Positions 1 to 1,119 of a stretch of 64,000 nucleotides of DNA are shown here, piece by piece. The notes below the pieces were generated by a model. It was given only the letters and a program-made list of their open reading frames with translations. It did not search any database and was not told where the DNA came from. The stretch's first letter is position 1; every line of letters begins with the position of its first letter. Source of the DNA: Collimonas sp. OK242 (GTDB lineage Bacteria; Pseudomonadota; Gammaproteobacteria; Burkholderiales; Burkholderiaceae_D); the NCBI RefSeq assembly GCF_900107095.1, contig NZ_FNOR01000012.1, positions 62,001 to 126,000 on the forward strand, written 5' to 3'. Made by a program: the position numbers and the translations under genes.

Positions 1-631
1 AATTGAGAATGACTTTGCGCGTCGGGCTGGCTTGCCAGGCTTCAACCACGGCATCGCAGACTTCTTTCGAAAAATCCAGCTCGGCGGTGCTGAAGGTTTC
101 CGGCGAATATTCATAACGCCATTGTGTTTCCGGACGGGCGTCGGTCAATTCCTTGATCAGGCGCGTGCCGGAGACGGCGATTTCCCTGACTTCTTCGCGG
201 CTCTTGTCGAACACGATACGGCGCCAGGCCGGAGAGATCGGGTTATACAGATGGACGATGGCTTGCTTGGCGTTCTTGAGCGCATCGACGGTGCGGCGGA
301 TCAGGTCATCGCGCGATTGGGTCAAGACGATGATGGTGACGTCGTCCGGAATGTGCTTTTCTTCAATCAGCTTGCGGACGAAGTCGAAATCGGTTTGCGA
401 GCCGGAAGGGAAGCCGACTTCGATTTCCTTGAGACCTATCTTCACCAGCAACTTGAAGAAGCGCAGCTTGCGATCGGCGTCCATCGGTTCGATCAAGGCC
501 TGGTTGCCGTCGCGCAGATCGGTGCTCATCCAGATCGGCGGAGCGCTGATGATTTGATTGGGCCAGGTGCGATCACTCAATGGAATCGGCGGGAACGGGC
601 GATACTTGACAGCGGGATTGTGCAACATCAT
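1..631 (-). CDS. leuA: 2-isopropylmalate synthase (5' part, cut by window edge)
   Basis: First committed enzyme of leucine biosynthesis: it condenses acetyl-CoA with 2-oxoisovalerate in the cytoplasm. Reading the minus strand, the protein opens with two Met codons, then a Pro-rich stretch ([15 protein letters not shown]) and the signature [18 protein letters not shown], which carries the metal- and substrate-binding Arg-Asp-Gly-Asn of the isopropylmalate/homocitrate synthase TIM barrel. The opening matches the long (about 560-residue) LeuA class. About 210 residues lie in the window; the rest is beyond position 1. The start is at 631 (ATGATG, the second Met at 628 being equally possible), with AGAGAGG just upstream. 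About 560 nt of leader with two leucine-rich mini-ORFs precedes it, so control by leucine supply is likely. Confidence 0.93.
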
Positions 632-688
632 GTTAGGCCTCTCTTGGAGCTAGTGAAGTGTGCTGATGAAATGAAAAGGAATTCTGTC

Positions 689-743
689 GTGGCAAGAAGG
701 TTGCCTGACTGCCACTCGAAAATTAACGCGAGGCCAGGCAACC
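689..743 (-). promoter_or_regulatory. Mutually exclusive hairpins, putative leuA attenuator
   Basis: Two RNA structures on the minus strand compete for the same bases. Hairpin B pairs 735-743 with 699-707 (GGTTGCCTG with CAGGCAACC, nine perfect pairs), and its 5' arm is codons 37-39 of the second leader peptide. Hairpin C pairs 710-715 with 689-694 (GTGGCA with TGCCAC) and can add GGCAA/TTGCC (701-705 with 691-695), which uses part of B's 3' arm. The RNA after C is moderately U-rich (CCTTTTCATTTCAT) but has no clean U-tract. The arrangement fits attenuation by translation of the leader; that function is inferred. Confidence 0.55.
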
Positions 744-851
744 GATCGGTAGCAGTAGCTGGAGCGATAGCAGTAGCAGAGCTGGCAAACGCTTGGCGGC
801 GAGCGTGTAGTTGTGGCGGAAGAAGGTAAAACGAAGTGGCGTGGAGTACAT
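723..851 (-). CDS. Leucine-rich leader peptide 2 of leuA (42 aa)
   Basis: A 42-codon frame on the leuA strand whose middle reads LPALLLLSLQLLLPIGCLA. Leucine codons include the run CTG CTA CTG CTA TCG CTC CAG CTA CTG CTA (codons 25-34). CTA is rare in the neighbouring genes, where leucine is mostly CTG, so this is the composition expected of a leucine-sensing leader such as enterobacterial leuL, although the sequence itself is not homologous as far as I can see. Start ATG at 851 with a weak AAAGAG nine bases upstream; stop at 723-725, which falls in the loop of hairpin B. It is the second of two such frames before leuA and, like the first, begins Met-aromatic-Ser-Thr (MYST here, MFST in the first). 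Translation has not been shown. Confidence 0.65.
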   Translation of the reverse strand: MYSTPLRFTFFRHNYTLAAKRLPALLLLSLQLLLPIGCLASR

Positions 852-953
852 GGAATCTTGCTCTTTAAAATGAAGATTCATTGACGAATCTCAGTTTTAC
901 TACCGTTGATTTCTTGACTGGCGCTGTTGTTGCTGTTGCTGCCAGTTGTGTCC

Positions 954-969
954 CCCCGTCAGAACGGGG
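954..969 (-). promoter_or_regulatory. GC-rich hairpin after leader peptide 1
   Basis: CCCCGT and ACGGGG (six perfect pairs, four-base loop) lie six bases after the stop codon of leader peptide 1. No U-tract follows, so it is not a standard intrinsic terminator. It may act as a pause hairpin or in a Rho-type mechanism coupled to leader translation. Confidence 0.4.
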
Positions 970-975
970 TCGAGA

Positions 976-1083
976 TCATAGTGCGCGTAGTAGCGATAGC
1001 GCTAGTAGCGGCACTAGCAGCATTGCCGGCAGGGCGCCAGCAACGTGCAGTAGAGAGCGGGATTGGATGCGTGTGGAAAACAT
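976..1083 (-). CDS. Leucine-rich leader peptide 1 of leuA (35 aa)
   Basis: A 35-codon frame on the leuA strand ending in MLLVPLLALSLLRAL. Of its eleven leucine codons eight are the rare CTA (codons 11, 23, 26, 27, 29, 31, 32, 35), a strong sign of selection for slow leucyl-tRNA-dependent decoding. The outer ATG is at 1083; an in-frame internal ATG at 1023 would give a 15-residue peptide. Neither has a Shine-Dalgarno sequence. A promoter-like TTGACA with a weak -10 would place the RNA start at or next to 1083, so the outer start could be leaderless. A GC-rich hairpin follows six bases after the stop, then the second leucine-rich frame. Function as a leader is inferred from composition, position and order. 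Confidence 0.68.
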   Translation of the reverse strand: MFSTRIQSRSLLHVAGALPAMLLVPLLALSLLRAL

Positions 1084-1089
1084 GCACTT

Positions 1090-1119
1090 AATGTATGGGA
1101 TAAAGTCGGGCCTTGTCAA
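1090..1119 (-). promoter_or_regulatory. Probable leuA promoter
   Basis: On the minus strand TTGACA (1114-1119), an 18-bp spacer and TACATT (1090-1095) form a plausible sigma-70 promoter: perfect -35, -10 matching TATAAT at four of six positions. It is upstream of both leader frames and would start transcription near 1083. Confidence 0.5.

Follow-up and report, generated by a model that had tools for sequence, protein, structure and literature searches.

In attenuators of the leuL type, a short leader frame ahead of leucine genes contains consecutive rare CTA codons. In Actinobacteria, the LEU element precedes leuA and combines a leader peptide containing a Leu run with a pseudoknot, for which the authors proposed a protein as the binder (Seliverstov et al. 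2005, PMC1262725). For the Streptomyces leuA leader, mutation of Leu codons is reported in that article to have given results inconsistent with classical attenuation. Leaders with two peptides have also been described: the tandem attenuators mgtM and mgtP of Salmonella mgtCBR sense ATP and proline (PMC3641672), and two leader peptides, ermBL and ermBL2, precede the single gene ermB (PMC8274638). The trpL attenuator of Sinorhizobium is leaderless, with the leader frame placed at the 5' end of the mRNA (PMC10117765). Given mgtCBR, the premise of the first-pass annotation of the DNA considered here, that the attenuators known so far carry a single leader peptide, was too strong. Its statement that a tandem leader for leuA is not known to have been described agreed with the open-access literature, in which none was found; an earlier mention of parts of the arrangement elsewhere is possible.

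The DNA analyzed (the window, i.e. the whole stretch of 64,000 nucleotides) belongs to a Collimonas-like soil-bacterium genome, the closest LeuA loci being from Collimonas with 97% identity over 210 residues. The leuA gene starts at position 631 on the minus strand, and its full open frame in the genome encodes 574 amino acids. Two short Leu-rich frames precede it on the same strand, and comparison with related loci indicates that these are probably two serial leucine-sensing leaders that form a two-step, ribosome-mediated attenuator. As in mgtCBR, two short serial frames lie in one leader ahead of the same downstream genes, but the mgtCBR leaders sense different signals, whereas both leuA leaders appear to sense leucine. 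The CTA-run leader is shared with the leuL type, from which the tandem differs in having two leaders and no terminator/antiterminator pair. Sinorhizobium trpL is a single leader concerned with tryptophan, whereas the first leuA leader is leaderless by prediction from promoter spacing. Unlike the leucine leaders, ermBL and ermBL2 attenuate the translation of a resistance gene in response to an antibiotic. The gene and its two leader frames are as follows.

2–631, minus strand: leuA, 2-isopropylmalate synthase (5' part, the gene being cut by the window edge); best NCBIfam match NF011420, E 2.7e-102.
638–643, minus strand: Shine-Dalgarno sequence of leuA, GAGAGG, kept in most Collimonas sequences.
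723–851, minus strand: leader 2, a 42-codon frame with a CTG/CTA run, ending in LLLPIGCLASR and a stop; supported by in-frame indels in Collimonas.
861–866, minus strand: AAAGAG, the probable ribosome-binding site of leader 2, kept in most Collimonas sequences.
976–1083, minus strand: leader 1, a 35-codon CTA-rich frame, predicted to be leaderless, most of whose Leu positions retain CTA within Collimonas.

Leader 1 encodes MFSTRIQSRSLLHVAGALPAMLLVPLLALSLLRAL and leader 2 encodes MYSTPLRFTFFRHNYTLAAKRLPALLLLSLQLLLPIGCLASR, each followed by its stop codon, and the coordinates and codon counts given for them in the first-pass annotation (1083–976, 35 codons, eight of 11 Leu codons CTA; 851–723, 42 codons, runs of CTG/CTA) were confirmed. 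The codon background was taken from the window and from leuA. CTA makes up 30 of the 1785 Leu codons in the window (1.7%), and relative to this usage its excess has a P value of about 1e-12 in leader 1 and of 3.5e-5 in leader 2, where four of the 12 Leu codons are CTA and four are CTG. When the region was shuffled 2000 times by dinucleotides, no frame contained eight CTA codons. Most Leu positions of leader 1 were CTA in all 13 Collimonas sequences, and in a pool of 102 distinct leader-1 peptides, mostly from Oxalobacteraceae with some from other Betaproteobacteria, CTA accounted for 499 of 875 Leu codons (57%) versus 5 of 1011 (0.5%) in leuA at the same loci. For leader 2, pairwise comparison of Collimonas sequences gave indels that were multiples of three in 150 of 150 cases versus 49 of 389 in the flanking non-coding RNA, these pairs not being independent events. 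The in-frame ATG at 881 would be an alternative start for leader 2, but it lacks conservation within Collimonas, and 851 was retained as the right one. Because the CTA bias is kept and the leader-2 indels are all in frame, both leaders are very likely translated.

Each leader is accompanied by a hairpin, as had been noticed before: one at 969–954 follows leader 1, and the other, formed by 743–735 with 707–699, overlaps leader 2. A further hairpin lies within leader 1.

954–969, minus strand: hairpin 3' of the leader-1 stop, CCCCGT-tctg-ACGGGG, without a U tract, seen in the Collimonas alignment.
1021–1045, minus strand: hairpin within leader 1, CGTTGCTGGCG-ccc-TGCCGGCAATG, abutting the CTA run, supported by a codon-shuffling test.

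The internal hairpin spans from about codons 13–16 up to the CTA run. Its mean score over 49 species was 14.9 versus 9.3 for codon-shuffled sequences (p ≤ 0.1 in 24 of the 49), and the sequence of the stem varies among genera with the pairing retained. The hairpin 3' of the stop is identical in 14 Collimonas sequences; other genera show no sequence conservation at this position.

The end of leader 2 coincides with a strongly structured part of the region, which consists of two crossing helices, S1 and S2, and the Leu codon in front of them.

750–752, minus strand: final Leu codon (CTA) of the leader-2 run, 6 nt 5' of S1, found in the frames of the family.
735–743, minus strand: 5' arm of S1, GGTTGCCTG, supported by alignment and covariation.
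711–715, minus strand: 5' arm of S2, GTGGC, within the S1 loop, recovered in elements located by S1 alone.
699–707, minus strand: 3' arm of S1, CAGGCAACC.
689–693, minus strand: 3' arm of S2, GCCAC, crossing S1 (pseudoknot or alternative hairpin), with compensated forms.

In an alignment of 61 sequences (A1), S1 is a 9-bp stem with 97.6% of cells paired and both-side changes at six of its nine pairs, and the whole structure is 98.5% paired versus 20–59% in slid controls. The near-invariance of S2 in this alignment is partly a product of the search pattern; a recount that used S1 only found S2 in 116 of 127 elements, with about 40 expected, and compensated variants (GCGGC/GCCGC and GCGAC/GTCGC) occur. 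The element is strongly structured (mean z −2.7) and the spacers are unstructured. S1 and S2 appear to be a pseudoknot-capable structure that could adopt either a pseudoknot or alternative hairpins; the last loop (loop 3) of the putative pseudoknot is only 3–6 nt in many sequences, so it may be too short for S2 to form alongside the 9-bp S1.

The leader-2 unit has in common with the LEU element a position before leuA, a Leu run, a stem with a second helix crossing it, and no obvious terminator. The published base stem of the LEU element, in which the Leu run pairs with the leuA Shine-Dalgarno sequence, is absent; such pairing scored 10.1 versus 10.6 for shuffled sequences over 102 loci, and for this reason the unit was named LEU-like rather than counted as a LEU member. 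The LEU element has one leader whereas leuA of Oxalobacteraceae has two, the sequences differ, and the codons are CTA and CTG here versus CTC and CTT in the actinobacterial loci L079–L081. A model of the leader-2 element (R1) gave no match in Actinobacteria up to E 5, the likeness being one of order of parts alone. The unit is suggested to be a betaproteobacterial counterpart of the actinobacterial element. The leader region had no Rfam family match at curated thresholds, and microRNA-family matches in two alphaproteobacterial loci (L067 and L062) fell below the gathering scores and were set aside as chance. A search of a plasmid collection gave no match.

In the 83 members of the family whose frame could be read, the Leu codon preceding S1 is CTA in 77 and CTG in six; a Leu codon was demanded at this position by the frame search, so its constancy is partly imposed, but the CTA:CTG ratio was not demanded and is hence informative. 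Immediately upstream of this codon, CTA makes up 44% of Leu codons in leader 2. The distance to S1 is 5 nt in the L108-type clade. The stop codon of leader 2 shifts by lineage and is found 5' of S1, within it, or 3' of it, and because the stop moves while the Leu codon stays, the comparison points to a stalled rather than a terminating ribosome as the sensor in leader 2. In a Herbaspirillum-like clade (L108–L121 and L131), leader 2 is mostly shortened (ending in PLLAL or similar) and stops before S1, and the S1 stem and a CTA codon 5 nt ahead of it are retained despite the short frame. In five other loci (L195, L199, L201, L202, and L206) leader 2 runs without a stop as far as leuA and overlaps its start, with the leader-2 TGA within an ATGTTGA overlap in L195, L201, L202, and L206; such an overlap could couple to, or interfere with, initiation at leuA.

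According to the strongest rival to the serial-sensor reading, S1/S2 alone would regulate, as a site for a protein or ligand, with leader 2 secondary and with leader 1 as the only leader to sense leucine by translation. S1/S2 is indeed the most conserved part, the L108-type clade keeps the structure with a short leader 2 of few Leu codons, and the codon mutations of the Streptomyces leuA leader reported in PMC1262725 would suit such a site. That same clade, however, also retains the Leu codon 5–6 nt before S1, and neither the exclusively in-frame indels of leader 2 nor the share of CTA just upstream favors a secondary leader, so we regard this explanation as unlikely, though deserving of some weight. 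How S1/S2 might act was also considered. Sequestration of the leuA Shine-Dalgarno sequence by S1 was rejected, masking of the S1 5' arm giving a mean change of −0.009 in predicted accessibility over 102 loci, as was a pairing of GGCCT in leader 2 with GAGGCC at the leuA ribosome-binding site, which is seen in the window, accessibility being independent of S1 across the 102 loci. Since accessibility does not change on S1 masking, simple sequestration does not explain the action of S1/S2.

The reading of two leaders in series presupposes a single transcript, and a sigma-70-type promoter was found directly ahead of leader 1.

1114–1119, minus strand: −35 box, TTGACA, present as such at 89 of 102 leader-1 loci and as TTGACG or TTGACC at the other 13.
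1090–1095, minus strand: −10 box, TACATT, with a spacer of 18 and its end 6 nt 5' of the leader-1 ATG, found by promoter scan.

The spacer is 18 at 90 of the 102 loci, and the end of the −10 box lies 6 nt from the leader-1 ATG at 80 and 7 nt at 16 (96 of 102 together), a narrow distribution that was not imposed, as the search window extended from 3 to 13 nt. The usual distance from a −10 box to the transcript start is 6–7 nt. As the spacing to the ATG matches this distance, the leader-1 mRNA is predicted to be leaderless, its transcript starting at or next to the AUG, and we propose that leaderless translation of leader peptides is a common design. Were the two leaders instead carried on two transcripts from separate promoters, they would never be in series; the leader-2 unit of Alcaligenaceae does lie near a promoter-like sequence of its own, and the promoter scan was crude, but the scan of the leuA strand from 1090 to leuA found no further promoter-like site apart from a weak one within leuA itself, and near-perfect −35 and −10 boxes stand ahead of leader 1 family-wide. 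This arrangement is therefore decidedly improbable.

The serial-sensor reading is best supported, with conservation wider than Oxalobacteraceae and with a leader 2 that belongs with a LEU-like RNA element. Of 97 non-redundant leuA upstream regions from Oxalobacteraceae, 96 contain leader 1, 90 the leader-2 element, and 89 both, where the counts involving the leader-2 element were made by a strict pattern; six of the seven regions missed by it (L003, L004, L012, L090, L092, and L171) carry a variant of the element. Another locus, L211, keeps leader 1 and has in place of the leader-2 element, in the stretch from −180 to leuA, an inverted repeat, GGGGTCGGAGCCC...GGGCTCTGACCCC. The two Leu-rich leaders in series that the first-pass annotation had pointed out are thus conserved family-wide with their CTA bias. 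R1 matched 31 of 399 genomes of the order, and 29 of the 30 loci examined precede leuA, a count that leaves out the match in genome G649; the one exception (L205) was taken as chance. In genome G524, a second leuA copy (L258) is preceded by its own diverged leader-2 element. Alcaligenaceae have the leader-2 unit only, and both units also occur in Methylovorus and several other families.

This distribution also bears on the earlier suggestion that leader 2 arose from leader 1 by duplication and divergence. Both leaders are Leu-rich and, in the Collimonas window, both start with Met-aromatic-Ser-Thr; the shared start was correctly read in this genome, but it is not conserved in relatives and so carries no weight as evidence. 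The units are differently built, leader 1 having its hairpin ahead of the CTA run and a predicted leaderless start, and leader 2 having its stem behind the Leu run and a start preceded by a Shine-Dalgarno sequence, and they occur apart, leader 2 without leader 1 in Alcaligenaceae and leader 1 without leader 2 in L211, which makes a duplication very improbable.

Considering again two serial sensors, the RNA that follows each leader was examined. The RNA 3' of the leader-1 stop has little structure (mean z −0.3) and contains 0.34 C and 0.22 G, with C exceeding G in 95% of sequences versus 52% upstream of the promoter. The spacer 3' of the leader-2 element has a median length of 42 nt and contains 0.32 C and 0.16 G, with C exceeding G in 97%. 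Such C-rich, G-poor, unstructured spacers fit Rho-dependent attenuation, which they suggest, though other untranslated regions can look alike. Attenuation of the classical kind, with an intrinsic terminator at either leader or at both, is hardly credible, as terminator-like sites are nearly absent (5 of 83 species after leader 1, where 1.5 were expected, and 0 of 83 after leader 2), even though Comamonadaceae-like genomes (L232 and L235, f49) have a CTA-run leader, a GC hairpin, and a U tract. Within 260 nt upstream of leuA, these two loci carry a single CTA-run leader (MQYLSLALLLMSHGQRQ and MQNLSLALLLMSNGQRK), and with the hairpin and U tract that follow, it is apparently a classical leucine attenuator.

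A mechanism can be proposed for the two-step attenuator from the parts that comparison among relatives supports, namely both frames, their codon bias, the promoter spacing, S1, S2, and the position of the Leu codon; translation, leucine sensing, the direction of the response, and a role of Rho are what we infer in it. A single sigma-70 transcript would start at or next to the leader-1 AUG, leader 1 would be read as a leaderless CUA-rich frame, and leader 2 would be initiated from a weak ribosome-binding site of its own. Under a shortage of charged tRNA-Leu, ribosomes would stall on the Leu runs, and a stall in leader 2 would block the folding of S1/S2; since the stall site lies 5–6 nt from S1, a stalled ribosome should keep S1/S2 open. 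With ample leucine, the ribosome would depart, S1/S2 would fold, and leuA expression would fall. The first step would most likely be a transcriptional checkpoint without an intrinsic terminator, and the foremost candidate for its effector is Rho, acting at the C-rich spacer. A simple model in which ribosomes shield the RNA from Rho does not follow readily, since a ribosome held up in leader 1 would leave a large part of the spacer uncovered. For the second step, the unaffected accessibility of the Shine-Dalgarno sequence and the absence of terminators in 83 species leave three candidates: action of Rho at the C-rich spacer, an effect on the stability of the RNA, or interference with initiation. 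The particular effector assigned to each step is tentative, and we would sooner expect it to be revised than upheld. Serial sensors of one amino acid ahead of one gene raise the question of what the second decision adds, and natural single-leader and double-leader versions within the family provide material for comparison.

A comparable arrangement was found in Alphaproteobacteria (L061–L065, L067, L068, and L070–L073), where 420 nt upstream of leuA contain two short Leu-containing frames. The first is preceded in most loci by a TTGAC-type promoter 6–7 nt before the ATG, and the second contains a Leu codon and extends into a GC stem. The two frames share stretches resembling CTTCGACTTA or CTGCGACTTA, after which come GC stems. 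R1 matched the alphaproteobacterial elements weakly (E 0.14–2), and the peptide end IGGSRA is loosely like PIGCLA; the weakness of the matches means that common descent of the alpha- and betaproteobacterial tandems is suggested, the link consisting of the arrangement and the loosely similar peptide end. It is conceivable, though we lean against it, that an ancient two-step leucine gate is common to both classes, in which one transcript would be judged twice for the same amino acid, first by a leaderless frame that reads CUA codons and then by a pseudoknot-tied frame started from a Shine-Dalgarno sequence, with a graded or thresholded response beyond the reach of a single attenuator. In a 299-genome sample of other Proteobacteria, a simple pattern found mostly one short Leu-containing leader or none.

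On its upstream side, the leuA leader of the window is adjoined by a gene for a small DUF3096 protein (PF11295; 1193–1330, minus strand). This gene lies outside the leader, its product is itself rich in Leu and Ile, and its position next to the leuA leader is kept in Collimonas and some related genomes.
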